Shown here: in pieces, positions 1-21,564 of the stretch
Layout: each line of letters starts with the position of its first letter
Numbering within the stretch: position 1 is the stretch's first letter
NCBI RefSeq assembly: GCF_947077765.1
Contig: NZ_CAMTTF010000001.1
Coordinates: forward strand, 718,818 to 782,817
DNA: 64,000 bases
From: Salinibacter grassmerensis
GTDB lineage: Bacteria > Bacteroidota > Rhodothermia > Rhodothermales > Salinibacteraceae
Direction of reading: 5' to 3'
The notes under the pieces: generated by a model
Told to the model about the DNA's origin: nothing
The model's database searches: none
What the model saw: only the letters and a program-made list of their open reading frames with translations
Made by a program: the position numbers and the translations under genes

Positions 1-2
1 GG

Positions 3-164: not shown

Positions 165-173
165 CGACAATGG

Positions 174-1214: not shown

Positions 1215-1217
1215 AAT

Positions 1218-1943: not shown

Positions 1944-2041
1944 GCTGAAGCAACCATTGACGAAATAATAAGGGGGTGACTAAATTTGGATTGCATTGCT
2001 AAGTGCTTTTTTCAGTTTCGTAAAATAAAAAATAAAATATA

Positions 2042-3037: not shown

Positions 3038-3249
3038 GTGCAGGTTCCCAGTTCCAAAATGTACTATTGCCCCATGTAGTGTTGGTGCCTAATACTTCTC
3101 TATTTCTGGGAAAGTATTAAAGACAACTCATCCAGTAGTCAAATTTGGAAAGTGTTTGGTGGACGTCCTTTCACCTGAAATGATGTAAATTTACTTTCCC
3201 AACTACACGTTCTCGACAGTCACAGAAGTTTAGACTTCAGATCGTCGAT

Positions 3250-4083: not shown

Positions 4084-4169
4084 AGACCACTCGCGAGGGA
4101 CCTCGATTGCCCGTCGCGGCTTGAAAGCCGTCAACTGTCGTTTAAAGTGGGTCAATCCCAGATTCGGAG

Positions 4170-5390: not shown

Positions 5391-5393
5391 TAG

Positions 5394-6605
5394 ATGGATT
5401 TCAGCATTGCTATTGTAGTTCCTTCTCTGCCAACTGGGGGAGGAGTTTCAAACGTTGCTCGATTTTTATACCGAGGCCTTCAACGTCAGCCCGGATACAA
5501 TCCACAGTATGTGTCTCTTGCAACCCGACGGGATGACTCCGCTAGCGTGCGAATCGTAGACCCCGCAACATGGACCTCTGGCATTCAGATTGAGAATGGA
5601 ACGGATGAGAGTAATCCCTACCGTCACGTCGGTGCGTTTCTCACAGAGTTCGAGTTTCAACGATATCGACCTCGACCCGAACTCACGCGTATTCTCGACG
5701 AATACGATTTGGTTCAGGTCGTAGCGGGACATCCGGCCTGGGCACTAGTGGCCGGAAATGTAGATCAACCAGTTGCTCTGCAGGTTGCCACGCTTGCAAA
5801 TGTTGAGCGGGCAATGAAGCGACAAGAGGGAGGAGGACTCATTGGAACGTGGCGCTCATGGATGACGAAAGTTGCGACGTGGATAGGAGACCGAGCCCTC
5901 CATCAGGTCGATGCGGTATTTGTCGAAAATGACTGGATGTACGATTACGTGCAAGAGACCGCTCCATCGACAGAGGCGGTCTTTGCCCCTCCTGGGATGG
6001 ATGTCGATACCTTCGTACCGTCGTCAACATCTTTCACGGAGCGCGACTACATCCTCTCGGTCGGACGATTTGGTGACCCCCGAAAAAACGCACCTCTTTT
6101 ATTCGAGGCGTATACTCGGATCCGAAAGGCTCTGGGTGATGAGGCGCCTCCACTTATTCTTGCAGGCCGGACGGGGCCCTCAAGCGAGGCTTGGGAGGTA
6201 GCCGAGCAGTGCGATGTCCGTCAACACGTTACCTTTATAGAAGACGTCTCGTATGATCGGCTCGTCGAGCTTTACCAGGAGGCAAAATTGTTTCTCCTTT
6301 CTTCGGATGAAGAAGGCCTTGGTCTCGTTATCTTAGAAGCCATGGCTTGTGGAATCCCCGTTGTGAGTACGGACTGCGGGGGGCCGTCCACCGTGGTTCA
6401 AGAGGAGGAAACGGGACGGCTCGTTCCGAAACGGGATCCCGACAGGCTAGCAAGTGAAGCGGTAGACCTTTTGCAGAATCCCTCACTACTTCGAGAGTAC
6501 GGACAGAACGCACGGAAACTCCTTGTTAACCAGTTTTCTGAAGAGGCCACCATGAGGGAGTTTCTAGATGTATACGAAGTCCTTTTGGCGAAAACACATT
6601 CTTAA
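5394..6605 (+). CDS. Glycosyltransferase, GT4 type
   Basis: The 403-residue protein has a GT-B architecture. The N-terminal half begins with PSLPTGGGVSNVARFL and binds the acceptor. The C-terminal half carries YILSVGRFGDPRKN, a long nucleotide-binding domain and the GT4 donor motif DEEGLGLVILEAMACGIPVV, whose EEGLGLVILE stretch corresponds to the family EX7E motif. It should add one sugar from a nucleotide-sugar donor to the growing polysaccharide unit at the cytoplasmic membrane. The ATG lies 3 bases after the wzy-like stop, so both are likely in one operon. Donor and acceptor are not predictable from the sequence. Confidence 0.85.
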   Translation: MDFSIAIVVPSLPTGGGVSNVARFLYRGLQRQPGYNPQYVSLATRRDDSASVRIVDPATWTSGIQIENGTDESNPYRHVGAFLTEFEFQRYRPRPELTRILDEYDLVQVVAGHPAWALVAGNVDQPVALQVATLANVERAMKRQEGGGLIGTWRSWMTKVATWIGDRALHQVDAVFVENDWMYDYVQETAPSTEAVFAPPGMDVDTFVPSSTSFTERDYILSVGRFGDPRKNAPLLFEAYTRIRKALGDEAPPLILAGRTGPSSEAWEVAEQCDVRQHVTFIEDVSYDRLVELYQEAKLFLLSSDEEGLGLVILEAMACGIPVVSTDCGGPSTVVQEEETGRLVPKRDPDRLASEAVDLLQNPSLLREYGQNARKLLVNQFSEEATMREFLDVYEVLLAKTHS

Positions 6606-6623
6606 TCAGTTCCCTACGTCGTT

Positions 6624-7805
6624 GTGAAGCTGCTCTTCATTACGCCATTCTACAAGCCCGCTCACGTCTACGGGGGGCCGACTCGGAGTATACCCGGCTT
6701 ATGTGAGGGATTGGCGCAGCGCGGATGCGAAGTGGAAGTGATGACGACCAATGCGAATGGGGAGGATAAGCTTAATGTGGAAACGGGGCAGCCCATTGAT
6801 CAGGATGGAGTGCCTGTCACCTATTTCGATCAATCCACGATACGAGATCAGTTTTTTTGGTCCTCCGATCTTCGAGACGCTTGTCGGAGAAGAGTTGAGG
6901 AGTTCGACTACGTGTATGTTTACGGAATTTGGAACTACCCAGCAATTGCGGCAGGGGCAGCCTGTCGAGAGAAAAACGTGCCGTATATCATATCTCCGCG
7001 AACTGGGCTTATGGAGTGGCCCTTACAGCAGGGGTGGCTTCGAAAAAAGGCATATCTCTGGCTTTTCGGATACCAGTATCTTGAAGGAGCCTGGGCCATT
7101 CACTATACCACGGAGGTTGAAAAGAGAGAATCGGAGCAATTGAAGTTTGATGTCCCGGGATTTGTCGTCCCAAATTGCATGGATTTTTCGGAGTTTGATC
7201 AGTTGCCTGATGCAGGATACTTCCGAAAACGATATGGGATCTCGGAGGATGCCCCTCTTTTGTTGTTTCTGAGTCGAATTGAGCCTCGAAAAGGACTTGA
7301 ACTTTCCTTTCGTGCTTTTGCGCGAGTCAGAAGCAATGTGCCAAATGCTCACTTCATAGTTGCTGGACCAGGAGAAGAGGAGTATGTACAGCAGCTGCAG
7401 GAGCTTACAGTTGAGTTGGGAATTGGAGAAGCAACGACATTCACTGGTTTTGTGGATGCTGCTGAGCGCCTCGAAGCGCTTGTTGATGCAAATATGTTTA
7501 TCTTGACTTCGTATACAGAGAACTTCGCGATGGCAGCGGTTGAGGCGATGGCGTCCCAGACGCCAGTGTTGCTTTCCGAAGAGGTTGGCGTAGCAAAGAA
7601 TGCCGATGCGGTACGAGCAGGCATCTCTGTTCCGCTTGAAGAAGACGAAATCACGGAGTACCTCGGGAAGGTTTTGAGCTCGCCCTCTTTGCAAGAGAAA
7701 ATGGGGAGAAATGGGCCGAGTCACGTGCGGTCGAGCTACCGACCCGAGTCGGTTGCTGAGCAAATGGTTCAAGCAATACAGCAGCGTCGAGAGGATTCTG
7801 CGTAG
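6624..7805 (+). CDS. Glycosyltransferase, GT4 type (GTG start)
   Basis: The 393-residue GT-B protein starts with KLLFITPFYKPAHVYGGPTR, a typical N-terminus of GT4 enzymes acting on exopolysaccharide. The donor-binding half includes LLFLSRIEPRKGLEL, HFIVAGPGEEE and the EX7E-like region ENFAMAAVEAMASQTPVL. I place the start at the GTG at 6624 because the conserved KLLFITPF strand follows it directly and no in-frame ATG precedes it. It sits 18 bases after the previous glycosyltransferase and probably extends the same glycan. The sugar donor is unknown. Confidence 0.85.
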   Translation: MKLLFITPFYKPAHVYGGPTRSIPGLCEGLAQRGCEVEVMTTNANGEDKLNVETGQPIDQDGVPVTYFDQSTIRDQFFWSSDLRDACRRRVEEFDYVYVYGIWNYPAIAAGAACREKNVPYIISPRTGLMEWPLQQGWLRKKAYLWLFGYQYLEGAWAIHYTTEVEKRESEQLKFDVPGFVVPNCMDFSEFDQLPDAGYFRKRYGISEDAPLLLFLSRIEPRKGLELSFRAFARVRSNVPNAHFIVAGPGEEEYVQQLQELTVELGIGEATTFTGFVDAAERLEALVDANMFILTSYTENFAMAAVEAMASQTPVLLSEEVGVAKNADAVRAGISVPLEEDEITEYLGKVLSSPSLQEKMGRNGPSHVRSSYRPESVAEQMVQAIQQRREDSA

Positions 7806-7846
7806 GGGGTCTTGCATTTCGCTATGACGTCGAATGGTATGCTTTT

Positions 7847-8755
7847 GTGGTGAGCTTAGAACATCTCCTCAAGAATTTTGCACGATCATATGCTCCTCCT
7901 ACAGGGGCGCAGTACGCCAGAAGGTTATTTACCTACTGGCGCTACTGGCGTCAAAAACGTCGTTCTCACGCAGGATACCGGAAATACGGAGAAAGATATC
8001 CACATAACCTGCTGTTTGTGGCAGGTCTTCCGAAAAGCGGGACGAGTTGGATGGAAAGTATGCTCGCCAGTTATCCTGGATTTCACCACACGATGATTCC
8101 GGAGGCTGTCGAGTATGAATTGGAGGCAGCCGGAAGTCACGATTACGAGCTTCCCTCAGATCTTGCGTCACGATTTGAGAATGCGCTCACAGTTTTGAAG
8201 CTACACGCCCCCGGTTCGCCTCGCAATATTGATATCTTAAGGCAACAAGAGATTCCCTACTTGGTCATGTACCGGGATCTTCGGGATGTGGCGGTCAGCC
8301 ATTACTTCTACGTGCGCCGCACACCGTGGCATCCGGAATATCCAGAATATAAGGAACTGTCCATAACTGAGGGAATCCGCCGTTTCGGAAAAACTCTTCT
8401 TCCGGAGTTCGGAAACTGGATCCGCTCCTGGAACGCAAATAGAGATGCCAGGTTGAGCCTCGCACTCCGATATGAGGATCTATTGGACGATACTGAAACT
8501 TACTTTTGGAAGGCTGCCTCACATTTTGGGTTAGACAACTCAAAAGAAATGGTTCGGGAGATTGTTGACGCTCACCGCTTTGAAAATGTGACGGGCGGAC
8601 GCTCGCGTGGAGAGCAAGATGCCCAGAGCTTTGTGCGAAAGGGGATCGCTGGAGACTGGCGATCCCATTTTACAAGTGATACCAAGACTTTGTACAAGGA
8701 AGAAATAGGAGATCTCTTGATCGAGTTGGGGTATGAGGAGGGAAAGAAATGGTAG
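7847..8755 (+). CDS. Sulfotransferase (Sulfotransfer_1 type, GTG start)
   Basis: The 302-residue protein carries the canonical 5'-phosphosulfate loop LPKSGTSWMESML at about residues 59-71 and the 3'-phosphate segment YRDLRDVAVSHYFYVRR at about 142-158. A C-terminal RKGIAGDWRSHFT is the PAPS-contacting RKGxxGDW motif. This is the most complete sulfotransferase of the three in the cluster and should use PAPS to sulfate a glycan or lipid. The start is a GTG at 7847 (a second GTG at 7850 is equally possible), since nearby ATGs are out of frame. It follows a glycosyltransferase on the same strand. Confidence 0.88.
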   Translation: MVSLEHLLKNFARSYAPPTGAQYARRLFTYWRYWRQKRRSHAGYRKYGERYPHNLLFVAGLPKSGTSWMESMLASYPGFHHTMIPEAVEYELEAAGSHDYELPSDLASRFENALTVLKLHAPGSPRNIDILRQQEIPYLVMYRDLRDVAVSHYFYVRRTPWHPEYPEYKELSITEGIRRFGKTLLPEFGNWIRSWNANRDARLSLALRYEDLLDDTETYFWKAASHFGLDNSKEMVREIVDAHRFENVTGGRSRGEQDAQSFVRKGIAGDWRSHFTSDTKTLYKEEIGDLLIELGYEEGKKW

Positions 8756-8783
8756 CTTTTGTCAAATAGACTATGTTCGTCCT

Positions 8784-9896
8784 ATGACCATCTCTAGAAA
8801 CGGCCGTTCCGATCACGGCTCTTTTCTCTCCTCGGATCCCGACGAGCGGATTGCCGCCGATCCGATTTTCGAGGGCGATGTCGATACGGAAAACACGGTC
8901 GTCGTCTGCGGCGCGGGCGGCTTTATTGGCGGACACCTCGTCGCCGACCTGCTTCGCCAGGGCTTTTCTACGGTCCGGGCCGTCGACATCAAGCCGCCGA
9001 GCCAGTGGTTCCAGAAGTTCGATCAGGCGGACAACCGGTCGTTGGACCTCCGGGAGAAGGAAAACTGCTACCGGGCTTTGGAGGGCGCAGACCAGGTCTA
9101 TAACCTCGCCGCCGACATGGGCGGAATGGGCTTCATTGAGAACAACAAGGCCCTCTGCATGCTCAGCGTGCGGATCAACACGCACCTGCTCATGGCTGCC
9201 CGGGACAACGATATCGACAGATACTTTTATTCCTCCAGCGCCTGCGTCTACAACCAGGAAAAGCAGGACACGCCCGACGTGGAGCCGCTCTCGGAGGAGG
9301 ACGCGTATCCGGCCCTCGCCGAGGACGGCTACGGGTGGGAGAAGCTCTTCAGCGAGCGAATGTGCCGGCACTTCCGGGAGGACTTCGGGCTCACCACCCG
9401 TGTGGCCCGCTACCACAACGTGTACGGCCCGTTCGGCACCTACGATGGCGGGCGGGAGAAGGCCCCGGCGGCGCTGACGCGGAAGGCCGTCGAAGCCAAA
9501 CTGTCCGGGGGCGGAGACATCGTGATCTGGGGCGACGGGACGCAGACGAGGTCGTTCATGTACATCGACGACTGCGTGAGGGGGACGCAGAAAATTATGC
9601 ACTCTTCTGTTACAGAGCCGATCAACCTCGGCTCCGACGAGCTGGTGACGATCAATGGATTAGTCGACGTGATCGAGAAGGCCGTTGAGGTAAACCTGGG
9701 CCGGGAGTATGACCTGACCAAGCCGCAAGGGGTGGACGGTAGAAACTCGGACAACACCAAGATCCAACAGGAGTTGGGCTGGGCGCCGCCGACGAAGCTG
9801 CGGGACGGGATGGAGGTGACCGCCGAGTGGATCGAGGAGCAGATGCGGCACCACATCGAGAAGGAGACGACCAGCCGGTTCGCCGTGGCGCACTAA
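8784..9896 (+). CDS. GDP-mannose 3,5-epimerase-like NAD-dependent epimerase
   Basis: This 370-residue extended SDR has an NAD-binding CGAGGFIGGHL at about residues 42-52, the catalytic YGWEK (YxxxK), and the segment NLAADMGGMGFIENN, characteristic of GDP-mannose 3,5-epimerases. Enzymes of that family turn GDP-D-mannose into GDP-L-galactose and GDP-L-gulose; here the product would feed polysaccharide synthesis. I prefer the ATG at 8784. An in-frame ATG at 8733 lies inside the previous gene and would add an unlike 17-residue leader. GC content rises sharply from this gene on. Another GDP-sugar epimerase activity is possible. Confidence 0.8.
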   Translation: MTISRNGRSDHGSFLSSDPDERIAADPIFEGDVDTENTVVVCGAGGFIGGHLVADLLRQGFSTVRAVDIKPPSQWFQKFDQADNRSLDLREKENCYRALEGADQVYNLAADMGGMGFIENNKALCMLSVRINTHLLMAARDNDIDRYFYSSSACVYNQEKQDTPDVEPLSEEDAYPALAEDGYGWEKLFSERMCRHFREDFGLTTRVARYHNVYGPFGTYDGGREKAPAALTRKAVEAKLSGGGDIVIWGDGTQTRSFMYIDDCVRGTQKIMHSSVTEPINLGSDELVTINGLVDVIEKAVEVNLGREYDLTKPQGVDGRNSDNTKIQQELGWAPPTKLRDGMEVTAEWIEEQMRHHIEKETTSRFAVAH

Positions 9897-9956
9897 TGAT
9901 TGGTTGTTGCTTTGGCCCAGTTTTTTGCTCATTTGCTCCAATCCAGCTTTCATCTT

Positions 9957-11225
9957 ATGGAAAAAAAGCATCTCGCCCTGGTCTGTCAGCATTTCTATCC
10001 GGAGATGGTGTCAACGGGAATGCACATGACGGAGTTGGCTCGTCGGCTCCGAAAGCACGGATGGGGGATCACCGTATATTGTGCGCAGCCGGCTCTTGAA
10101 GAAGGGGAAGAAGAGGTGCCGACTATAATGACGCATCAAGGCATACGGATTAAGAGAATGCCTACAGTCGGTGACCAACGAGAGTCCACAGTGTCGCGAC
10201 TATTTTTGGCTTTCACGTACGTTGCGTCGACAACGCGGGCTCTTATTCAGGATCGGGACGAGTACGACGGCTTACTAGTCACTACGAATCCTCCCTTCAT
10301 CGGGCTTGCAGGGTGGTTTGCCTCGAAGGTGCTTGGGAAACCGTACGTTCAACTTGTCTATGACGTATACCCCGACATCGCCGAACAACTCGGTGTGATT
10401 GCCGAAAATGGAGTGCTGTCGGGGCTATGGGAGCAGATGACGCGTCTCATCCTTAACGAGGCAACCAGCACGGTTGTCATTGGTCGAGATATGGCCGAGC
10501 TGGTTCAAAAGAAGATGAGGCGGAAGAATTACGGGAGCATGCAGCTCATTCCGAACTGGTCGGATGAGACAGTCGTTGAGCCGGTTCCACGAAATGAAAA
10601 TCCATTTCGGCGCGAGAATGACGTTGGAGATCGGATGCTTGTGCAGTATGCCGGACGGCATGGTAAGACGCACAATCTAGAGCCATTAATTGAAGCTGCG
10701 AGCCAACTCACCGATCGGCCGGTCCTCTTACAATTCATCGGGGGGGGGGATAAGAAAGAGAAGTTGCAGCGCATGGCAGAAGAACGGAGTCTGGAAAATG
10801 TGATGTTTCTTCCGTACCAGCCCATGGAGAAGCTCGACACAGTCCTGGCTGCAGCGGACATTGCGGTCGTCTGCCTTGAGAGTCGATTTACCGGGATGTC
10901 CGTTCCGAGTAAGACTTACGGCATTATGGCCAGCGGAACGCCTCTTCTGGGCCTCCTCGACAAAGAAAGTGAGATCGGACGAACCATCCAGGAGAACGAC
11001 TGCGGGTATGTCCTGGAAGATCCGTCGGGAACCGAAGTTGCACAGAGCTTAGAAACCCTCTTGAACGAGCCCGATCTTCTTGAAGGTATGGGCACGCGAG
11101 GTCGGGAAGCGTTCGAAGCAAACTTCACACTTTCAGCCGCCGCCGAACGATATGACGCGGTGCTCTCCCGTTACATCTATGGGAGAGAGCCCAATGATAT
11201 GAGGCCCGTACCTGAGAGAGGGTGA
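9957..11225 (+). CDS. Glycosyltransferase, GT4/WcaI-like
   Basis: The protein is 422 residues from the ATG at 9957. It opens with LALVCQHFYPEMVSTGMHM, the start of WcaI-like exopolysaccharide glycosyltransferases, and includes VTTNPPFIGLAGWF and YDVYPDIAEQLG, both frequent in that group. The C-terminal domain has LVQYAGRHGKTHNLE and FTGMSVPSKTYGIMASGTPLL around the donor site. A TTG at 9900 would lengthen it by 19 unlike residues, so the ATG is preferred. It follows the epimerase by 60 bases and likely transfers a sugar onto the lipid-linked unit. The donor is not determined. Confidence 0.85.
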   Translation: MEKKHLALVCQHFYPEMVSTGMHMTELARRLRKHGWGITVYCAQPALEEGEEEVPTIMTHQGIRIKRMPTVGDQRESTVSRLFLAFTYVASTTRALIQDRDEYDGLLVTTNPPFIGLAGWFASKVLGKPYVQLVYDVYPDIAEQLGVIAENGVLSGLWEQMTRLILNEATSTVVIGRDMAELVQKKMRRKNYGSMQLIPNWSDETVVEPVPRNENPFRRENDVGDRMLVQYAGRHGKTHNLEPLIEAASQLTDRPVLLQFIGGGDKKEKLQRMAEERSLENVMFLPYQPMEKLDTVLAAADIAVVCLESRFTGMSVPSKTYGIMASGTPLLGLLDKESEIGRTIQENDCGYVLEDPSGTEVAQSLETLLNEPDLLEGMGTRGREAFEANFTLSAAAERYDAVLSRYIYGREPNDMRPVPERG

Positions 11226-11279
11226 GCATGTGTTGGGTGTCGTCGTGTTGTTTTCTGCTTCATGATCGGGGTCTCTGCA

Positions 11280-12275
11280 ATGACGATTCTGGTGACAGGC
11301 TGTAGTGGGTATATCGCAAGCTTCCTGATTCCTGCGCTGAAAGAACGAGGCCATGCGATCCTCGGAGTTGATCGCGTTTCATACGAAGGAGAGGACGTTG
11401 ACGAGTTTCGGCAGGCTGATCTCGTTGAGGATAAAAGCCTGAGAGGAATGGCCGACCAGGCGGATGCGATTCTCCATCTTGCGGCTGCGAAAGGAGACTG
11501 GGGAATCTCCGAAGAAGAGTACTACCGGGATAACTTGGAGGCCACCCGGAACGTCATTGAGGCTGGGGTGGAAGCTGGGGTGAAAGACTGGGTCTTCTAC
11601 AGTACGGTCTCCACTCTGGGTCCTCATCGACGGGCGGTTGGAGAAAGGGCAGAATTCAATCCCATCAACCCCTATGGTGCGTCCAAAGCCGATGCCGAAA
11701 AGCTCTTTCAGGAGTTCGCCAGGGACAATCCGGAGGCCCGTGTTCTGGTCATTCGCCCATCGGTTGTATATGGTCCGGGTAATCCACCGAGCACGAACAT
11801 CTATCGCCTCGTCGACGCCATCTACAATTGCCGGTTCGCGATGGTGGGATCGGGCGATGCCATCAAGTCGACCTCATACATCGAAAACCTACTGGAAGCG
11901 ACACTCTTCCTGATGGATCGGATGGAATGTGGTATTCAAACCTACATCTACGTCGACGATCCTGCTCTCACGACTGGGACGCTGGTCAAACGCATCTATA
12001 AGCTACTTGGAAAATCACCGCCGTCGTGGCACATCCCGCTAAGTGTCGCGTCACCGATCGCGACGGTATCTGACTGGGCGGCGGACCTCACTGGAGTAGA
12101 CTTTCCGATCACCGCTGCCCGAATTGAAAAGTTCAACCGATCGACGAACTTCAACGCCAGCAAGATTCGGAAAGAAGGATTTGAGCAATCGGTGTCAAAC
12201 AGGGAGGCGCTTCGGAAGACGGTCGATTGGCATCTCCAGCACGAGTATAGTGAGTCTCTGTCAGGTGGACTATAA
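11280..12275 (+). CDS. NAD-dependent epimerase/dehydratase (extended SDR)
   Basis: The 331-residue protein has the NAD(P)-binding TGCSGYIASFL near its start, a DAILHLAA segment, the catalytic NPYGASK (YxxxK) and RPSVVYGPGNPP, all typical of extended SDR sugar-nucleotide enzymes. It probably interconverts or reduces a nucleotide sugar for the polysaccharide. The ATG at 11280 puts the first beta strand (MTILVTGCSG) directly at the N-terminus; an ATG at 11262 would add six residues. It is followed after 117 bases by another SDR gene. I cannot name the substrate. Confidence 0.8.
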   Translation: MTILVTGCSGYIASFLIPALKERGHAILGVDRVSYEGEDVDEFRQADLVEDKSLRGMADQADAILHLAAAKGDWGISEEEYYRDNLEATRNVIEAGVEAGVKDWVFYSTVSTLGPHRRAVGERAEFNPINPYGASKADAEKLFQEFARDNPEARVLVIRPSVVYGPGNPPSTNIYRLVDAIYNCRFAMVGSGDAIKSTSYIENLLEATLFLMDRMECGIQTYIYVDDPALTTGTLVKRIYKLLGKSPPSWHIPLSVASPIATVSDWAADLTGVDFPITAARIEKFNRSTNFNASKIRKEGFEQSVSNREALRKTVDWHLQHEYSESLSGGL

Positions 12276-12392
12276 CCTCTATGGGGAATGACTCCCATCA
12301 TTGCTATGGTTATTGCTCGTCTTCTGTCACAGCTCGAGATGCAGGGGTTGGGCCCTGCCTACTTCTCACTCGTCACTCACGCCTGAAAACCT

Positions 12393-13376
12393 ATGCACAT
12401 CTGCGTCACCGGCGGCGCCGGGTTCGTCGGAGGGCATCTCTGCCGCCGTCTCCTGAACGACGGCCATCGCGTCACGGCCATCGACAACTTCGACCCCTTC
12501 TACCCCCGTAGCATGAAAGAGGAGGGCATTGCGGACGTCCCGCGGGAGCGAGTTACGCTCATCGAGACGAATATCCGTAACACCGACACCCTCTTGCAGG
12601 CCCTGCACGCCCGCGACGTGGATGCGATCGTGCACCTCGCCGCCCGAGCCGGCGTGCGCCCGTCGATTGAAGCGCCAGGGGCCTACGAAAAGACGAACGT
12701 CGGGGGGACCCGGTCGATGCTGGAGGTAGCCCAGGAGCTTGGCGTCGACACATTCATCTACGGGTCTTCCTCGTCCGTGTACGGCAACAACGACACGGTC
12801 CCCCTTGCGGAGAGTGATTCGGTGCGGGAGCCGATCTCACCGTATGCCGCCACAAAACGGTCCGGGGAACTGCTGGCGCACACGTTCCACCACCTCTATG
12901 GGCTAACAGTCCACTGCCTGCGCTTCTTCACCGTCTACGGCCCGCGCCAGCGCCCGGACCAGGCGATCCACCGGTTTGCCCGGCAGCTCCTCATGGACCA
13001 GCCGATCACCATGTACGGCGACGGCACCTCCCGCCGCGACTATACCTACGTGGCCGACATCGTCGACGGCATCGTGTGCAGCCTGCACCGTGCAAAAGGG
13101 CTCGACGAGCCCGAGTACGAAATTATCAACCTCGGGGGATCGGAGACCACGCAGCTCAAGGATCTGATTTCCGGCATTGCCGAGGCCATGGACATCACGC
13201 CGGAGATTGAGCAGCTGCCGACGCAACCGGGCGACGTGAAGCGGACGTACGCCGATATCTCGAAGGCGCAGGAGCTGCTCGACTGGGCGCCGGAGACGCC
13301 GATCGACGAGGGCCTTCAGACGTTTGCCGACTGGGTAAAAGACTACTACGCGGACCGGCCGGTGCTGGATGTGTGA
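12393..13376 (+). CDS. UDP-glucuronate 4-epimerase-like sugar-nucleotide epimerase
   Basis: The 327-residue extended SDR contains [18 protein letters not shown] at residues 4-21, [14 protein letters not shown], the YAATK catalytic pair, [17 protein letters not shown] and [20 protein letters not shown]. The RAGVRPS and RRDYTYV segments are those of UDP-glucuronate/UDP-glucose 4-epimerases (GalE/CapI type). It likely makes UDP-galacturonate or UDP-galactose for the capsule. A decayed second copy of its C-terminal half lies 2.2 kb downstream at 15605-16086, on the other side of a toxin-antitoxin/IS block. Confidence 0.85.
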
Positions 13377-13618
13377 CTGGAACGCAGGTGTGGAGGGAGT
13401 GGGGACGTGAAAGAAACCGCACCGGTCGCTTCGAGACGCGGGCAGGGTGAGAGAGAACCGAACTTATTATTGGGCTGGAAGAAACGACGCCCCGCAGGGG
13501 GCGTAGTGTCGATCACAACCGGATAGACATATGTCAGGTGGAGTCTTCAATCTATAGCCGACGGTGACTTGCCTGGCGGGGACAGTGCAGAACCGCACGA
13601 ACCAGGTGGAACGTGTTC

Positions 13619-13906
13619 ATGGCGAGAGTCACTCGCGAACACCGGACCGAAATCCTGCAGCTTGCTCGCGAGCACGGGGCGTACAATGTGCGGCTCTTTG
13701 GGTCGGCCGCCCGCGGTGAAGATCATCCGGACAGTGATCTTGACCTCTTGGTCAAAATGGAGTCCGGCCGAAGTTTACTAGATCACGTCGCCCTGAAACA
13801 AGACCTCGAAGATCTACTGGGACGAGACGTTGATGTCGTCACGGAAGCGTCGTTGCACCCGGGGCTTCGCGATCGGGTGCTTCGAGAGGCCGTCTCCCTT
13901 CAATGA
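13619..13906 (+). CDS. MntA-type nucleotidyltransferase antitoxin
   Basis: The 95-residue protein has a minimal nucleotidyltransferase fold. RLFGSAARGEDHPDSDLDLL contains GSX10DXD, the active-site motif of MntA antitoxins of type VII (HEPN-MNT) systems. In studied systems MntA transfers AMP to a tyrosine in the HEPN Rx4HxY motif and so silences the toxin RNase. The ATG at 13619 is chosen over a GTG at 13613. Its stop codon TGA overlaps the HEPN start in an ATGA junction at 13903-13906, as expected of translational coupling. Its toxin partner is split by an IS element, so this may be an orphan antitoxin. Confidence 0.85.
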   Translation: MARVTREHRTEILQLAREHGAYNVRLFGSAARGEDHPDSDLDLLVKMESGRSLLDHVALKQDLEDLLGRDVDVVTEASLHPGLRDRVLREAVSLQ

Positions 13907-13957
13907 GTGCCGATAAGTCGGACGCACTGTACCTTGAGCACATTCAAGAGCGCATTA

Positions 13958-13983
13958 TACCAATTGCCTAGGATGATAATGCA
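13958..13983 (+). repeat. IS630-type left terminal inverted repeat
   Basis: This 26-base end starts TACCAATTGC and pairs with the right end at 15079-15104, whose reverse complement starts TACCAAGTGC. 21 of 26 positions agree. The TAG that truncates the HEPN reading frame lies here. Confidence 0.8.
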
Positions 13984-15025
13984 CCTGCGGCGTCAACCAA
14001 ATATCCGTACCCAGTGAGGGAGGCAACCGCTTTCTCGGTGTAGGTGGCAACCGCGCTCCGAACCTCCTGTCGAAGGGCGGCCAGGCTCTCGTAGAGGTCA
14101 AACGCCACTTGATCCTTCAGGTCTTGCCAGAGCCGCTCGACCGGGTTTAGCTCTGGGCTGTACGGCGGGAGAAAAATCAGCCGGACGTTCCTTGGAACCG
14201 AGAGCTTCTTCGCCTTATGGAATGCGCCATTGTCCAGGACGACTGGCGCCCGTGGCTGCGAGGAAACGCTTCTGCAAACCGGTCGAGGAATACCTGAAAG
14301 CAGTCGCTGTTGAGTCGGTCGTGTTCTGCGGGAAAACGCTGTCCCGTCTCCGGCTCGACTGCTCCGTAGAGGTAGAAGTACTCGTAGCCGGGCTTTGCCT
14401 CCTGAATCGGCTTCACGCCAGGGAGAGTAATCCGGTGCCTTTTTACCGGCATCAGTCCGAACCGACACTCGTCCTGGCAGAACAATCGAACAGGCCGACT
14501 CGCCTCCGTCTTGACGCTGTCAAGGCGGCCGGGAAGGCCTTCCTGAAAGTCTATTTGCTCCTGCTCGTTTTTTTTGGGATGGCTCGGCCGGGGCGACTTC
14601 GGCTTGGCCCCGAGATCATACCGCACGATGCCATGCACCGTCGAATAGCAGAGGTCTACGTCCTGCTCCTCAGCAAGCCACTGCTGGATCTCTTTGTAGC
14701 TGCTTTGGGCCCTCCGGCTTAGAGAGGCGTTCCTTAAGATCCTCCATTACAGTAGGGGGAATCGACTGCTGGCCAGGCTCCGGGCCTGGTTCTCCAATCT
14801 CGCGAAGCTTCTCCAGGCCACCTTCCTCGTAGAGCCCGATCCAATCGGCAATCGTGTTGCGACAGGCGCCCAACCGGCGGGCCGCTCCGCTTAGGGCCCA
14901 AAGGCCTCTCCGGTCTTCAACAGCAACAACATGTGGAAGCGGCGCTGGATCTGGGCGTCTCGCTCCTTGCGAACAAGGCGTTCGAGCCGCTCGGCGGACT
15001 CGGAGATCTCTGGAAGGTTGTACAT
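13968..15025 (-). pseudogene. IS630-family transposase, frameshifted
   Basis: Read on the reverse strand from an ATG at 15025, the product begins MYNLPEISESAERLERLVR and breaks at about 14895 (a TAA after EAFGP). It resumes in another frame with the helix-turn-helix ALSGAARRLGACRNTIADW, shifts again near 14700 (into YKEIQQWLAEEQ) and once more near 14260. The DDE catalytic core is still visible in pieces: CQDECRFGL, VVLDNGAFHKAK and PPYSPELNPVERLWQDLK. With three shifts this is most likely a dead gene. A programmed frameshift could explain one of them but not all. Confidence 0.8.
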
Positions 15026-15078
15026 GGCAGGAGGCGTTTTTTGCAAAGCACTTTCCAAACCTCCTGAATTAACAAATC

Positions 15079-15104
15079 TGCATTGTGATCCTCAGCACTT
15101 GGTA
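15079..15104 (-). repeat. IS630-type right terminal inverted repeat
   Basis: The right end of the element is the inverted partner of 13958-13983 with 21 of 26 positions matching. It is followed directly by the TTA target copy at 15105-15107 and by the resumed HEPN coding sequence. Confidence 0.8.
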
Positions 15105-15604
15105 TTAGACGTCTTGAAACGTGCGCCCAGGAGGGGCGAGAGGCCTTTGACGCATCGCCAATTCTTCAGGATGCGGCCATGCGCACCTTCGAAGTGATCG
15201 GGGAGACAGTGAAACAGCTCTCTCCCGATCTTCGAGACCGGTATGCTGATGTGGAATGGCGCAGAGTGGCGGGATTTCGGGATGTGCTCATCCATAACTA
15301 CATGGGCGTTGACCTTGATGAGGTGTGGAACGTGATCGAGAAGGACCTGCCGCGGCTCAAGCGAACGGTGAAGGCCATGCTGGAGGATGTGAACAGATAG
15401 GTCCTTTATTTCCCGGACAACCTAGCCGGTCGGCATTCCCGCCGTCTCTCGCCTGGTTCTTACCCCTCATGCCAGGCCGATGTGCGGAATGGGAACCGGT
15501 CCTGATTCCGACGACTGCTGGGGGGAGGCCTGTCGAAGAGAGGGGCGGTGCGCGAACACATCTCCTTGTACGCCGCGATGAAAAGACCCGGTGGGCTATT
15601 GACG

Positions 15605-16086
15605 CGTGTGTTCTACCTCCTCTACGACATCATCGTTCACGGCCTGGCCTTTTTCCTCGTCTACGGCCCCTGGCTGTACCCTGAGTGAAACGAGGAGGTG
15701 CTTTTAGAGTGCGCCCTAGCCCATCACGATGTGCGGCGACGGCACTTCCCGCCGCGACTACACCTACGTGGCCAACATCGTCGACGGCATCGCGAGCAGC
15801 CTGTGCCGCGCCAAAGGGCTCGACGCCCCCGAGCGTGAAATTTGCCGGAGTGTAGATCACATGGCTCAAGGGCCTAATTACTGATACTGCAAAGGCGATG
15901 GACGTCACGCCGGAGATTGAGCGGCTGCTGGCCCAGCCGGGCGACGTGAGGCGCACGTCCACGGACATCTTGAAGGCGAAGGCTCTGCTAGACTGGGCAC
16001 CGGAGACGCCAATCGACGAAGGGCTCCAAAAATTCGCTGACTGGGTGAACGCCTGCTATGCGGACTGGCCGGTGCTGGACGTGTGA
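15605..16086 (+). pseudogene. Decayed duplicate of the UDP-sugar epimerase C-terminal half
   Basis: The region reads as a damaged copy of the gene at 12393-13376. Bases 15605-15688 give VFYLLYDIIVHGLAFFLVYG, matching the parent segment around [13 protein letters not shown]. From 15729 another frame gives [18 protein letters not shown], and from 15898 a third gives MDVTPEIERLLAQPGDVRRT and continues to the same last residues PVLDV. At least two frameshifts and several stops separate the pieces, and the N-terminal NAD-binding half is absent. This argues for duplication followed by decay, or two separate epimerase genes one of which was lost around the HEPN-MNT insertion. Confidence 0.8.
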
Positions 16087-16222
16087 GTTGAGTGAGAGGG
16101 GAGGGTGCACGAGCGGTGAGAGTATAGGTATGAGAGGTTAAGCGCTCTGCGTTCAGGATCGAGCAGCCGGTAGATATAGAAGGACGAATCTGATTGTATC
16201 AGCCAAATAGGGAGGGTCTCCC

Positions 16223-16576
16223 ATGCACATTCCGAACCCGGATCAGGCTCGGGTTGAACGCACCAAGATTTTGGGGTACCTCCTCAATCAGGAACATCCC
16301 GACGGGCAGAGCAAAGCGCGATTTTTCAAGCAGTGTGGATTTCGACGGTCCCAGTGGCGTCGGCTCGCAAATGCGCTGCGAAACCAGGCCCGGCGTTCGG
16401 AAGTGACGACAGTTCGAGAGTCATCCCATGGAACGCGCTATGTGGTCGAGGGGGCAATCGAAACTCCGACGGGAAACCGCCTGGAGGTGCGGACGGTTTG
16501 GATTGTTGAACAGAATCAATCAGAGCCGGGGCCTCGATTGGTAACGGCGTATCCTCTTTCTTCAACGGACCGGTAG
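16223..16576 (+). CDS. DUF6883-like small protein
   Basis: The 117-residue protein begins with IPNPDQARVERTKILGYLLN, then EHPDGQSKARFFKQCGF, and ends with TGNRLEVRTVWIVEQNQ and PRLVTAYP. This order matches my recollection of the DUF6883 domain. Its function is unknown; members are often found in small two-gene units that look like toxin-antitoxin or polymorphic-toxin modules. A GGGAGG purine run lies about 8 bases before the ATG, a better ribosome site than most genes here have. The stop is 4 bases before the DUF4926-like gene, so the two should be co-expressed. Confidence 0.65.
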   Translation: MHIPNPDQARVERTKILGYLLNQEHPDGQSKARFFKQCGFRRSQWRRLANALRNQARRSEVTTVRESSHGTRYVVEGAIETPTGNRLEVRTVWIVEQNQSEPGPRLVTAYPLSSTDR

Positions 16577-16580
16577 GCAG

Positions 16581-16805
16581 ATGATCGAAGAACACAATCG
16601 AGTGGTTCTTACGACGAAAGAATCCGATGCGGGACTGGAGCCGGGGGACGTCGGAACGGTTGTCCACGTGTATTCTGAGGGGGAGGCCTTTGAGGTTGAG
16701 TTCGTCACCCTCACGGGAGACCCCGTTGCCGTGCTGACCGTCGACCGGGAGGAGGTGCGCCCGGTTCAGTCGCGGGAGCTGACCCACGCCCGGGGCTTGG
16801 AGTGA
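16581..16805 (+). CDS. DUF4926-like small protein
   Basis: The 74-residue protein has the pattern HNRVVLTTKESDAGLEPGDV, then GTVVHVYSEGEAFEVEFV and a TGDPVAVLTVDREEVRPV tail. It looks like a small beta-barrel of the DUF4926 type. It lies 4 bases behind the DUF6883-like gene, and DUF4926 proteins are commonly found as the second member of such pairs. An antitoxin or immunity role is a plausible inference, not shown by the sequence. Confidence 0.65.
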   Translation: MIEEHNRVVLTTKESDAGLEPGDVGTVVHVYSEGEAFEVEFVTLTGDPVAVLTVDREEVRPVQSRELTHARGLE

Positions 16806-16983
16806 GAATGGAGCGCCGGTCGGACGTCCGCGAGGGAGGGGGAGGACCTGCGCCAACAGATTCAGTTTCTGTAGGGGAGTCCGGGGGCAGAATCTGGCGA
16901 TGTATCGACTGTTGTGCGACGTGGGGCAAAACAGTGTCGCACGTTGCTTTTACACCAAGGTCGTCACGAGATCGCCGCCTGAC

Positions 16984-17246
16984 CATGCCCAGTCTTCCCC
17001 CGAGGAGCCCACCTGCTGAAGGCGACGAGTTCTCAAGATCTCGACGCGGCCTTCGAAACGGTCTTTTCGGAGTACTTGTCTCTGAAGATCGACAGTCTTG
17101 AGCGTTCGATTAGGCGTAAGGAAGAAAAGTGGGGCATGGAGTTTTCTGCCTTCAAGCGCCGACTGGCGGAACAGGACCTCTGGGAGTGGGAGGAGGCCGA
17201 AACGCTTAAGGCCCACTACCAAGAGGTGCAAGCGGAATGGACGTAG
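16984..17246 (+). pseudogene. Broken small gene, possible antitoxin-like, frameshifted near its start
   Basis: From the ATG at 16984 the frame is lost after a few codons in a run of five C bases. Removing one C would join it to the frame reading GAHLLKATSSQDLDAAFETV and then a charged helical stretch ending WEWEEAETLKAHYQEVQAEW, stop TAG at 17244-17246. The implied product is about 87 residues, mostly helical, and overlaps the next small gene, which starts at 17237. Overlap with a DUF6516-like partner suggests a two-gene module. I do not recognise a named family for it. Confidence 0.45.
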
Positions 17247-17392
17247 CGACCTTCCTCCCTTCGCTGCTGGATGCGTTGGCGGATCGGCCGTTTGTCCAGT
17301 CCGTCGATCTGGAGACGGAAGCCATTGTTGTCAAGGGCCGGGACGTAGGTCCGATCAACTCTGTTGGGACTCAGTCTCTCGAATGTCTCTGA
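17237..17392 (+). pseudogene. Truncated DUF6516-like small gene
   Basis: The 51-residue reading frame starts MDVATFLPSLLDALADRPFV and continues QSVDLETEAIVVKGRDVG before running into sequence unlike the start. The opening resembles the N-terminus of DUF6516-type proteins, normally near 100 residues, so the C-terminal half appears lost. Its ATG overlaps the end of the preceding broken gene, as in a coupled pair. The last 22 bases overlap a reverse-strand ORF, which may mark where other DNA joined. Confidence 0.4.
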
Positions 17393-17757
17393 GGCACATA
17401 GTCTCGAAGAGCGTCGCAGAGGTGCCGATGAAGCTCTACGAACGTGAGGCGGGCATGCGCCTTTCCCGTCAGCACCAGCAGTGGATCGACACACTCTTGG
17501 GGAATTCGCTTGGTCCCCTTGCTCGTCTGTTCCGTTACGAACACGACCGCACGCATGAATTCGTGCTCCCCGTGCTTGTTGGTTTCGGGCGGGGGCAGGA
17601 GAAACGCGCCGTAAGGATCACTGTCTTCGTAGCCGAGGTCAGGCGCGGGAGAGCCAATGTGCGAGGGAACCCTTTGGGCTCGTACGCGGACCCAGTCGCA
17701 GTCCAGGCGTACGCGGCCCTGATGCGGAAACTTGAGCGTCCAGAGGGTTGCGTAGAT
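17371..17757 (-). CDS. Unassigned reverse-strand ORF, possibly a degraded gene
   Basis: A stretch of 128 codons on the reverse strand reads smoothly. It starts near YATLWTLKFPHQG, includes HIGSPAPDLGYEDSDPYGAF, then EFMRAVVFVTEQTSKGTKR, and ends PLLVLTGKAHARLTFVELH followed by RHLCDALRDYV. Hydrophobic and charged residues alternate as in a real protein, more than the shadow frames do. The open frame extends up to 18027 but the upstream part looks non-coding, and there is no ATG at the likely start; an ATC at 17755-17757 stands where one would be expected. I recognise no family. A shadow frame is the main alternative. Confidence 0.35.
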   Translation of the reverse strand: MYATLWTLKFPHQGRVRLDCDWVRVRAQRVPSHIGSPAPDLGYEDSDPYGAFLLPPPETNKHGEHEFMRAVVFVTEQTSKGTKRIPQECVDPLLVLTGKAHARLTFVELHRHLCDALRDYVPQRHSRD

Positions 17758-18104
17758 GCTCAGTCGGGATGAGGACCGAAGGCTCACGTGGCAGCACTGG
17801 AGCGTAGTACAGATCCCACTGCGAGGGTCCCCCAGAACGTCGGTGCGATGGCAGATAGGTGCATGGACTGCACTCTTTTCGAACAGGGCACGTCGAATGA
17901 TGCCATTGCACGCCCACGATGCCCCTGTTCCTAGGGGGCAATCGTCCATGGGACCGTGTCCTGATGGATTGGGGACGATCGAGGGGCACTGCCTACGGTG
18001 AGTGCTTCGGGCGACGAGTCGGAACAAGGAGCGTCCACGCCGATGGACACGGGCGTTCTACGCGTCGCCTCACCGTGCCGACTGCGAACACTCCGTCCGC
18101 CCCC
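17758..18104. other. Non-coding stretch before the Wzi-type gene
   Basis: About 350 bases without a convincing gene. Frames run through on both strands but give low-complexity, Arg-rich or otherwise unlike translations. It should hold the promoter of the Wzi-type gene, though I see no clear -35/-10 pair. Confidence 0.5.
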
Positions 18105-19619: not shown

Positions 19620-19730
19620 GCTGGAGGAATGAACGGCCGGGTGGAGTGGACAACAGAGGAAGGGAACGGATCCTGTTGCGGAGCTGAGCGTTCCGGTATA
19701 TGCATACATACAGATCCCAATTGTACAGCC

Positions 19731-20237
19731 ATGTCTGCATCCACGACCGCAGAACAGGATCGGCAAGAGCGGTGGGCGGAAATTCGCTCGGATCCCGTTC
19801 TCCGTGAGCTTTCCTATAAGGTCGAAACCAACCGTAGAGGACAGCTGATTTTGAGTCCACGCTCCGCTTCGCATTCCGACACGCAGGGCGACCTCATCGC
19901 TCTTCTGCACGAGCATGCGGATGGGTGACGCGTTCGGCCGGAGTTCCCCGTCGTGACGGCGAAGGGGACAAAGGTCGCCGATGTCGTCTGGTGCACGGCC
20001 GCGCGGAGGGACGAGATGGAAGAGACGGGGGATCCTCCGACTCTGGCTCCGGAGGTGTGCATCGAAGTCATGTCCGAGTCGAACGACCTGGACGAGATGG
20101 ACGAGAAGCGTGCGCTCTATCGCGAGGCGGGGGCCAAGGAGGTCTGGATCGTCACCGAAGAGAGAAGCATCCGCTTCTTTGCCGATGAGGAACGAGACAC
20201 GTCCGAGGTAATACTGGACATTCCGAATCGCTTTTGA
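19731..20237 (+). pseudogene. Uma2-family endonuclease-like gene with an in-frame TGA
   Basis: The frame from ATG 19731 gives MSASTTAEQDRQERWAEIR and on to LLHEHADG, meets a TGA at 19926-19928, then continues in the same frame with RVRPEFPVVTAKGTKVADVV, PEVCIEVMSESNDLDEMDEK, RALYREAGAKEVWIV and a TGA stop at 20235-20237. This is the Uma2 (DUF820) PD-(D/E)xK-like fold; the full product would be about 168 residues. A single nonsense change explains the break. A GTG at 19953 could start a C-terminal piece. Uma2 proteins are of unknown role, often multicopy and patchy. Confidence 0.75.
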
Positions 20238-20343
20238 GGACCGGTCGGTGCTCAGGATTTGTGTTCTCTACCGGTCTAGAGAAACAATATTGGCTGAAAC
20301 GGAGAGGAGAAATGTTAAGGTTTTGGGTAGAGTTGGGCGGACA

Positions 20344-20372
20344 TTGACATCCCTGCCCGTGTACCGTACCGT
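20344..20372 (+). promoter_or_regulatory. Possible promoter of the aromatic leader-chorismate mutase unit
   Basis: A perfect TTGACA at 20344-20349 is followed after 17 bases by TACCGT at 20367-20372, a weak -10 match (3 of 6). Transcription would begin near 20379, only a few bases before the leader ATG at 20382, so the leader would be almost leaderless. No Shine-Dalgarno sequence is seen before that ATG. Confidence 0.35.
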
Positions 20373-20381
20373 GCAATAGTC

Positions 20382-20525
20382 ATGAACAGACGCACTCTCA
20401 CATCCGCTGATTTTTCCGCGGCCGACACCCACGTCGGCGCGCCCGAGGGCTTCTGCGCTTTTGCCCGCTTCTATCTGGGCTATGTGTATACCTATTTTTA
20501 CCCCCTAACGGCCAGCGGTTCGTAG
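20382..20525 (+). CDS. Phe/Tyr-rich leader peptide of a transcription attenuator
   Basis: A 47-codon frame lies between the Uma2 remnant and the chorismate mutase gene. Residues 24-40 read FCAFARFYLGYVYTYFY: nine of 17 are Phe or Tyr (4 Phe, 5 Tyr), with no Trp. The seven codons after them end at TAG 20523-20525. A terminator-like hairpin follows 26 bases later, and the downstream gene makes prephenate, the precursor of Phe and Tyr. This is the arrangement of a ribosome-stalling attenuator (compare enteric pheA leaders, which are Phe-rich). A shortage of charged tRNA-Phe or tRNA-Tyr would stall the ribosome at 20451-20501. The peptide itself probably has no function of its own. Confidence 0.8.
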   Translation: MNRRTLTSADFSAADTHVGAPEGFCAFARFYLGYVYTYFYPLTASGS

Positions 20526-20563
20526 AGCGCGCGTACCACGTTGTTGTTGCACCCCGCCGGCCG
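20509..20563 (+). promoter_or_regulatory. Candidate antiterminator pairing of the aromatic attenuator
   Basis: Bases 20509-20518 (CGGCCAGCGG, within the last codons of the leader) can pair with 20554-20563 (CCGCCGGCCG) at 9 of 10 positions. The second arm contains most of the left arm of the terminator at 20552-20560, so the two structures exclude each other. A ribosome stalled on the Phe/Tyr codons leaves 20509-20518 free, while one reaching the stop at 20523 covers it. This is the logic expected of attenuation. Confidence 0.65.
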
Positions 20564-20589
20564 ATCGCCCTCGGCCCCGGCGGGGTTTT
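20552..20589 (+). terminator. Attenuator terminator hairpin upstream of chorismate mutase
   Basis: CCCCGCCGG at 20552-20560 pairs perfectly with CCGGCGGGG at 20577-20585, followed by TTTT at 20586-20589. The 16-base interval can add a small inner hairpin (CCGA with TCGG). It lies 26 bases after the leader stop and 71 bases before the chorismate mutase ATG, so it acts on transcription into that gene. The U-run is short. Confidence 0.75.
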
Positions 20590-20660
20590 CTCGTGTGTGG
20601 GTCGATGGCGCCGCGTCCGGTGGGTCCCCGACGCATTCTCAACCCTCCAGCGACCCACCC

Positions 20661-21029
20661 ATGCCCACGTCTACCAGCCCAACGACTGTCCAGGAGGCGC
20701 GCACCCGCATTGATGAGATCAACGAGCGGGTCGTCGAGCTGCTCGCCGAGCGGCAGGCCGTTGTCGATGCCCTCTGCGAAATGAAGGCCGATGCCGGCCG
20801 CACCGTGCGCGATCCGGAGCGCGAGGCCGAGTTGCTGGCCCACGTCCGGTCGGTGGCAGGCGAGGCGGGCCTGCCCCCCGACCTCGCCGAAACCCTCTTC
20901 GAAGAGATCCTGGCCCACTCCGTGGAGCGCCAGCGGCACCAGCGGGCCGACGAGGCCGCAGAGACGCCTGCCGAGGAGGCCGCGACAGAGGCGACCGGTG
21001 CCGTCTCCACGTGTGGAGCGCAGGCGTAG
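20661..21029 (+). CDS. Chorismate mutase, AroQ (type II) class
   Basis: The 122-residue protein has the all-helical AroQ fold. EARTRIDEINERVVELLAER is helix 1 with the catalytic Arg and the start of the binding site; VVDALCEMKADAGRTVRDPE supplies the conserved Lys and Arg-Asp, followed by EREAELLAHV; and a last helix ends HSVERQRHQ. It converts chorismate to prephenate, the branch step to Phe and Tyr. It stands alone, without a fused prephenate dehydratase or DAHP synthase, and has an acidic, Ala/Glu-rich tail typical of halophilic proteins. An attenuator with a Phe/Tyr leader lies directly upstream. The ATG at 20661 is clear. Confidence 0.88.
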   Translation: MPTSTSPTTVQEARTRIDEINERVVELLAERQAVVDALCEMKADAGRTVRDPEREAELLAHVRSVAGEAGLPPDLAETLFEEILAHSVERQRHQRADEAAETPAEEAATEATGAVSTCGAQA

Positions 21030-21132: not shown

Positions 21133-21564
21133 ATGAGCACGTCCTCGGACCGCCCGGACTTCGTGCCGGAGTACAACAAGCCGGATGCGCCCGGCCTGCA
21201 CATGAACTTCGACAACACGGTCTCGCTCTACCACGTCGTAGGGCCGGAGGACGACTTCGAGGCGGCGGCGCAGGACGTGTTTGCGCTGCTCAAAGAAGCC
21301 CAGGCGGAGTTTCCAGACTGGCCACGGGTCCTGTACCTCGATATTCAGGGGCATGCCCGAGACGACGGGCGCCTGGAGGAGGACATGGTAGAGCTTCAGC
21401 AGGAGTTTCTCCTCGCCGCCATGGGCAAGTTCTTCACCGCCCTGGCGCTGCCGCTCGTGTCGGTGGTCAACCCGGACGATCAGGTCAACGACCTGCCAGA
21501 CGAGCTCGTCCTGCAGCCCCCCGACGCGGAGTTGCCGGGGGACACGGCCTGGCCCAAAGAATAG
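21133..21564 (+). CDS. Hypothetical acidic protein
   Basis: The 143-residue protein is strongly acidic, with no signal peptide or membrane helix. It contains LHMNFDNTVSLYHVVGPEDD, then FEAAAQDVFALLKEAQAEF and VLYLDIQGHARDDGRLEED, which suggest a mixed alpha/beta cytoplasmic protein. It follows the chorismate mutase gene by 103 bases on the same strand and may share its transcript. I recognise no family. Its regular codon use and the acidic composition shared with neighbours argue that it is real. Confidence 0.7.
   Translation: MSTSSDRPDFVPEYNKPDAPGLHMNFDNTVSLYHVVGPEDDFEAAAQDVFALLKEAQAEFPDWPRVLYLDIQGHARDDGRLEEDMVELQQEFLLAAMGKFFTALALPLVSVVNPDDQVNDLPDELVLQPPDAELPGDTAWPKE

Follow-up and report, generated by a model that had tools for sequence, protein, structure and literature searches.

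A conserved Phe/Tyr leader-peptide attenuator predicted for the chorismate mutase gene of Salinibacter and its relatives

Introduction

In Salinibacter grassmerensis a chorismate mutase (CM) gene is preceded by a short reading frame rich in Phe and Tyr codons and by a GC-rich hairpin followed by a T run, and the question arises whether the supply of these two amino acids sets the expression of an enzyme of their own pathway. An earlier note on the same 64,000-nucleotide stretch of DNA (here called the window) had read the arrangement as enteric-type attenuation. The comparison with related genomes presented below argues for a ribosome-mediated transcription attenuator which would sense charged tRNA-Phe and tRNA-Tyr and control CM, and the probability of this reading is put at about 0.9. 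What has been established, in silico, is that its parts are present and conserved, that the pairing is maintained and that the geometry of a stalled ribosome fits. The principle is a known one, and the example, a conserved Phe/Tyr leader-peptide attenuator of CM, is apparently undescribed.

Structure of the locus

The features of the locus, together with the positions of related leaders discussed below, are collected in Table 1.

Table 1. Predicted elements of the CM attenuator and locations of related leaders (window positions, unless a genome or locus handle is given)
Feature	Position	Strand	Description and basis
Box upstream of promoter	20311..20332	+	close to TTCTGTGTAGA/TTCTGTGTAAA; by eye, 10/13 genus members
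Predicted promoter	20344..20372	+	TTGACA-17-TACCGT, 9 nt before leader ATG; pattern in relatives
Leader peptide ORF	20382..20525	+	47 codons, ATG to TAG (20523-20525); profile matches in relatives
Putative regulatory codons 24-40	20451..20501	+	FCAFARFYLGYVYTYFY, Phe/Tyr 9/17; codon reading, stall geometry, codon choice
Region 2, predicted antiterminator 5' half, within last leader codons	20509..20518	+	CGGCCAGCGG; pairing in relatives
Region 3, predicted antiterminator 3' half, overlapping terminator 5' arm	20554..20563	+	CCGCCGGCCG; pairing in relatives
Predicted intrinsic terminator	20552..20589	+	perfect 9-bp all-GC stem, CCCCGCCGG (20552-20560) / CCGGCGGGG (20577-20585), TTTT at 20586-20589; sequence, energy
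CM gene (predicted regulated gene), AroQ/CM_2 type, 122 aa	20661..21029	+	Pfam PF01817, E 9.2e-22
trpE Trp leader, own genome	G000:C14 near 2711-3157 (L295)		other genomes: L289-L291, L293, L294, L296-L299
Prephenate dehydratase leaders of the phylum	L243, L275, L279, L280, L283, L285, L286		

In 1000 dinucleotide shuffles of the DNA upstream of the CM gene (about 520 bases) no short ORF had at least nine Phe/Tyr in 17 codons, the shuffle maximum being 7. The window holds 489 ORFs of 20-70 aa, and of these one besides the leader reaches this value; it is located on the minus strand at 1077-1268, within the low-GC terminal part of the window, so that composition alone is only moderate evidence and no proof, and the case is carried by conservation. 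Tyr and Phe codons are similarly frequent, with 5 and 5 in the window leader and 110 and 98 in the 27 leaders described below.

The stem of the terminator begins 26 bases after the leader stop, and the slightly longer hairpin used in the ribosome folding test has an energy of -27.6 kcal/mol. Regions 2 and 3 are able to pair at 9 of their 10 positions. The single mismatch, A20514/C20558, is confined to the window, being missing from the 18 other aligned sequences, and it counts against an attenuator, as does the short T run of the window terminator. No Rfam family, including the T-box, riboswitch and leader families, reached its gathering score within the window. The CM gene is the only CM_2 match found in its own genome by the PF01817 search.

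The elements named in the earlier note were re-read. The leader of 47 codons with nine Phe/Tyr at residues 24-40 agrees in coordinates and residues, the perfect 9-bp GC stem with TTTT, 26 bases past the leader stop, holds at each coordinate, the competing pairing of 20509-20518 with 20554-20563 is again found at 9 of 10 positions, and the next gene, taken there for a chorismate mutase, matches the CM_2 family as such.

Conservation of the leader

Relatives were sought by a protein search of 60 and by a PF01817 search of 27 family genomes and 114 order genomes, with 107 CM_2 matches. The upstream DNA of these 107 places (none being present for G036 contig 37, and 346 bases only for G041) was scanned for a Phe/Tyr-rich ORF with an intrinsic terminator behind it, a terminator score of at least 12 being taken as positive. 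It was found that 26 of the 107 places carry a leader ORF with such a terminator; the remaining ones score 10.2 or less or have none. The 26 leaders contain from 3 to 12 Phe/Tyr per 17 codons and nearly all are rich, the low values of G084 (3) and G001 (5) counting against an attenuator. To these was added by eye, under a relaxed T rule, the leader EFGYFYGFYFYF of G036, which lies at a contig end and is followed by a terminator with a poorer T run. The resulting 27 loci include every one of the 13 genus members; five more belong to family f1 and the other nine to families f10-f13. The conservation of Phe/Tyr codons in homologous leaders, which the earlier note had proposed as a check, is strong.

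A leader profile recovered 17 CM-linked leaders with E values of 1.7e-9 or better in 113 order genomes, and Salinibacter altiplanensis, Salinivenus iranica and Salinivenus lutea are among the named matches of another scan, run separately. With the same profile no second copy of the leader was found in the own genome, the best other match having an E value of 0.046 (62 of 77 first-look candidates scored).

In a tree of 105 CM domains, built on few columns and with both G036 rows left out, the 26 leader-bearing rows group with one very long row, G032 (branch support 92/88), and on the other side, which represents a different CM type, 0 of 78 rows carry a leader. The placement of G032 is unreliable, and two label changes are needed because of this long row. 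Both CM types are present in G023, G037, G038 and G083, and the leader stands before only one of them.

The leaders range from 81 to 159 bases including the stop, the frame being open from a start close to the promoter to a stop close to region 2. Their sequence is variable except for the Phe/Tyr codons and the AGG codons at the C-terminal end. Within the genus the peptides are aromatic and moderately conserved (consensus AFARxYLGYAYxYFY); in other families the aromatic stretches read, for example, SFYFYGFAF, PYSGYWF and FSFYFYFYFGY, the codon class being kept and the residue order not. Phe/Tyr codons ending in T make up 144 of 208 in the leaders, but within the CM domains of these loci they number 9 of 68.

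Genes behind the leader

In the window and in nearly all genus members CM stands alone behind the leader; in G008 a match to class I DAHP synthase follows a few hundred bases past CM. Elsewhere fusions occur. According to Pfam, G018 and G013 have CM-DAHP synthase fusions behind the leader, G023 a CM-prephenate dehydratase in which the ACT domain is weak, and G057 (L018) a CM-dehydratase-ACT-DAHP synthase. From the reading of translations, G019 resembles a CM-DAHP synthase and G035, G037 and G038 (L019, L021, L022) resemble the three-function fusion. The latter, composed of CM, prephenate dehydratase/ACT and DAHP synthase, occurs after the leader in three families, f10, f12 and f13. The leader thus tracks the CM domain through its fusions, which all belong to the Phe/Tyr pathway.

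Pairing and covariation of the antiterminator

The longest helix which the final 36 bases of the leader can form with the 5' arm of the terminator, summed over the 27 loci, amounted to 228, and with shuffled leader ends the same sum had a mean of 149.6 and a maximum of 165 (200 rounds). For the permutation tests 19 of the 27 sequences (families f1 and f12) were used, the eight rows in other registers being left out; the MAFFT alignments A3-A5 split region 2 or region 3 in distant rows and were for this reason not used for pair counts. Comparison of 13 positions of region 2 with region 3 in the 19 sequences gave 190 paired cells out of 247. In the antiterminator core 113 of 114 cells are paired, the window mismatch being the sole failure, a figure which is partly forced because the core was located by motif. 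In a motif-free rerun no 13-mer in the last 40 leader bases outscored region 2 in any of the 19 sequences, and when the best region 2 was re-chosen for each partner, 190 was reached by 20 of 5000 permutations of region 3. The covariation signal is weaker in this form than with the motif-located core, for which the corresponding count was 21 of 20000. With 12 less redundant sequences the observed pairing was matched by 115 of 5000 permutations. At fixed position and without G013 and G037 the counts were 91 of 5000 (17 sequences) and 491 of 5000 (10 sequences), the last value not being significant.

Changes from G-C to A-U on both sides were observed in G005, G013, G019 and G037, and in G036 both sides of the antiterminator are wholly different (GGAAGCG / CGCTTCC) with the pairing kept. 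The distance from region 2 to the leader stop is identical in 17 of the 19 sequences. The exchange of region 2 and region 3 partners across species made little difference to the energy (-24.1 kcal/mol for matched and -21.4 kcal/mol for swapped partners), a comparison which is weak because of the GC content. The covariation of the antiterminator is therefore genuine in kind but of moderate strength, and it comes mainly from the distant rows. As to the compensatory changes which the earlier note had suggested looking for, the competing pairing is kept, with some two-sided changes and moderate covariation.

Promoter and upstream box

A strict promoter pattern (TTGACN-like and TANNNT-like elements with 16-18 bases between them) was present in 17 of the 27 leader loci, and all but one of these have a spacer of 17. 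The ATG follows the end of the -10 element after 9-10 bases in 16 of the 17, the exception being G037 with 7 bases before a GTG; in G002 a promoter TTGATA-17-TAGCAT-9 was recognized by eye. A generic sigma-70 scan found no promoter in the window, where TACCGT has 3 of 6 matches to the -10 hexamer of that scan. Because of the spacing of 9-10 nt almost no 5' UTR is predicted, and the conserved promoter position suggests that the leader mRNA is leaderless.

About 12 bases before the -35 element lies the upstream box of Table 1, which is altered in the window itself; it is missing from both Salinivenus rows, G001 and G012, and from the other genera compared. Taken as the signature of a regulon, it was matched in 5 of 11 genomes, four times at the CM locus and once elsewhere, in G028. 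The box is maybe a candidate regulator site, acting together with attenuation.

Ribosome geometry and proposed mechanism

In the enteric layout (pheL/trpL) four segments include a 1:2 protector or pause hairpin, and pheL of E. coli is not leaderless. A conserved 1:2 protector was not found in the 27 loci (mean z -0.60, with 3 of 27 below -1.65); hairpins of forms other than the 1:2 protector tested are possible. Of the claim that all parts of enteric-type attenuation are present, the leader, the terminator and the antiterminator stand and the 1:2 protector is unsupported.

The geometry was tested by folding the RNA which the ribosome leaves free, a fixed footprint being assumed. When the ribosome stood at the stop codon, the terminator contained its own 5' arm, to within one base, in 27 of 27 loci. 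With the ribosome on most of the Phe/Tyr codons, leader RNA took up much of this arm, and in most loci the sequestration faded at the final one or two of these codons, where the ribosome starts to cover region 2. Summed over the loci, 212 arm bases were sequestered by leader RNA, compared with a mean of 129.7 and a maximum of 161 in shuffles of the last 33 bases (100 rounds). For the window alone, 10 of 100 leader-end shuffles sequestered equally, and G038 (76/100), G018 (61), G086 (53) and other f13 rows did no better than shuffles. In this model a ribosome at the leader stop appears able to stand in for the 1:2 protector.

For the transcription start, the translation, the termination and the starvation response of the attenuator we infer the following course. 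Transcription would start at the leader ATG or a few bases from it, and a ribosome would load at the 5' end of the RNA and trail the polymerase. When both Phe and Tyr are plentiful, the ribosome would reach the TAG and cover region 2, leaving region 3 free, so that the terminator could fold and an RNA of about 205-210 nt would be released. When either Phe or Tyr is scarce, the ribosome would stall on codons 24-40 with region 2 uncovered, and the latter would pair with region 3 before the 3' arm is synthesized. With the antiterminator formed there would be no terminator, and the polymerase would continue into the CM gene.

Alternative explanations

The terminator might merely insulate the CM gene from upstream transcription, the leader ORF being a chance frame. 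The existence of one other window ORF with at least nine Phe/Tyr in 17 codons and the shortness of the T tract would agree with this, but leader, region 2 and terminator occur together at 26 of the 107 CM_2 places and in G036, on one side of the tree, with a common promoter spacing in 17 of 27 loci and a pairing that exceeds that of shuffles, and such an origin is considered very unlikely. Arrest by the nascent peptide, or a coupling with Rho or with translation, could act instead of the level of charged tRNA, and peptides that are aromatic and moderately conserved within the genus would suit it. What is kept across families, however, is the codon class and not the residue order; moreover, an intrinsic terminator is present in 27 of 27 loci and trpE in the same genomes carries Trp codons instead, and we give this mechanism very little credence.

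A short terminated RNA or peptide could also act in trans, perhaps besides attenuation, in the manner of rnTrpL/peTrpL of Sinorhizobium. The leaderless leader RNA of S. meliloti is reported to do so (PMC7298713), and the Phe/Tyr RNA would share its form, yet the leader is variable apart from its Phe/Tyr and C-terminal AGG codons, and a trans-acting product is regarded as highly improbable. The preferred reading is attenuation governed by charged tRNA-Phe and tRNA-Tyr.

Leaders at other amino-acid genes

Upstream of trpE a Trp leader occurs in the own genome and in nine other genus members searched, e.g. MIDKASITSLGWWLWSPSLRVKSPLHA, that of G006 being read by eye from the DNA. In these leaders region 2 lies in the last leader codons and is able to pair with the 5' side of the terminator, and a promoter of like spacing was present in 9 of 12 scanned. 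The trpE Trp leader is probably a second undescribed attenuator.

No Phe/Tyr leader was detected before a separate prephenate dehydratase in 14 loci of the own genome and some of the order, and 0 of 16 CM-dehydratase fusions of the sister families f17-f18 had a leader by the criterion used. The own genome gave no match to class I DAHP synthase, and four order loci of this enzyme showed no leader; class II DAHP synthase gave no convincing leader in 13 loci, and nothing clear was seen in the genus among 13 hisG loci. ORFs upstream of hisG were noted in G009 (L304; 4 His in 12 codons, GTG start) and in G030 of another family (L302; 5 His), and these are possible His leaders.

In the phylum, PF00800 was found in 102 of 118 genomes and 60 loci were scanned for leaders (L237, L240 and L281 duplicate loci already used). 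A Phe/Tyr leader with terminator, having 8-9 Phe/Tyr in 12 codons, precedes prephenate dehydratase in seven of the 60, namely in G119, G171, G115, G141, G206, G177 and G144. They resemble the CM leader in having a Phe/Tyr ORF and a terminator and differ from it in enzyme and in sequence, and may be of separate origin.

It is tempting to speculate that in Salinibacter and its relatives CM and anthranilate synthase (trpE), which compete for chorismate, share one attenuator design, in which a leaderless leader mRNA would carry regulatory codons, half of the antiterminator would fall within the final codons of the leader, and a ribosome standing at the stop would take the place of the enteric protector. 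In this scheme the Phe/Tyr leader would sense both amino acids and stay with the CM domain through its fusions with DAHP synthase and/or prephenate dehydratase. As a whole the scheme is tentative, and we would give it somewhat less than an even chance.

Surroundings of the locus

The GC content of window positions 1-18000 is 0.43-0.60, compared with 0.61-0.73 in the remainder, and this part looks like an acquired island ending near the CM locus. Two adjoining ORFs occupy 19629-20237, shortly before the attenuator, and perhaps represent a Uma2 gene that has been split or has decayed: the second has a match to the C-terminal portion of Uma2 (PF05685), and the first is N-terminal-like by eye. Directly downstream of CM, at 21133-21564, is an ORF of 143 aa with no Pfam match, the reverse complement of which was seen by eye beside CM in several relatives; it may form an operon with CM.

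Significance and comparison with known systems

Proteobacteria and Actinobacteria are the groups in which leader-peptide attenuation is well studied, and these data would extend it, with good comparative evidence, to the Salinibacter lineage. The leaders of CM and trpE suggest that the Phe/Tyr and Trp branches are balanced at chorismate by two opposed tRNA sensors. The 27 leaders, with several fusion architectures, offer a test bed for attenuators without 5' UTR or protector hairpin, and the set is also suited to the question of whether one leader senses two amino acids.

In the open-access literature no Phe/Tyr attenuator of the Salinibacter lineage was present among the matches listed, in agreement with the earlier opinion that it may be undescribed there, and the one paper in these sources that names both Salinibacter and 'leader peptide' appears to concern tryptophanase. 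An earlier prediction is possible, for instance in a 2010 survey by Lopatovskaya and colleagues.

In 2010 the authors of a Firmicutes case were aware of no earlier leader-peptide systems outside Proteobacteria and Actinobacteria except ermC (PMC2965389). For Flavobacterium psychrophilum, of the Bacteroidetes, leader-peptide attenuation has been suggested before amino-acid operons (PMC9723704); it belongs to a different class, and no Phe/Tyr leader or CM is named in the available part of that source. In Bacteroides, sORFs reminiscent of leader peptides have been reported (PMC7366714). In a paper on the his genes of Bacteroidota and Rhodothermota the word 'leader' does not occur (PMC8305728), and the available text of a survey of Actinobacteria gives no conserved Phe or Tyr element (PMC1262725).

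Leaders at the 5' end of the transcript have precedents. Transcript data place the starts of the leaderless leader peptides trpL, leuL and ilvL of Streptomyces lividans (PMC8079986) and put the trpL ORF of Sinorhizobium at or near the 5' end of its transcript (PMC7298713). The CM leader is like these in having its ORF near the transcript 5' end, the start being here a prediction, and unlike them in amino acids and lineage. In Corynebacterium glutamicum the leader aroR, with Phe-Tyr-Phe, precedes the aroF operon (DAHP synthase), and stalling is reported to raise transcription under Phe limitation, the availability of Tyr being without effect (PMC11802643). That system is actinobacterial, serves another enzyme and has three aromatic codons named, as against nine here.

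Closest in kind, beside aroR, is pheL-pheA of E. coli, in which a leader with Phe codons precedes CM-PDT and charged tRNA-Phe is the signal (PMC11802643). Both systems have an aromatic-codon leader before an enzyme carrying chorismate mutase. Unlike pheL, the Salinibacter leader is predicted to be leaderless, has region 2 inside its ORF and showed no conserved 1:2 protector, and it contains Tyr as often as Phe before an enzyme that in this genome consists of CM alone.
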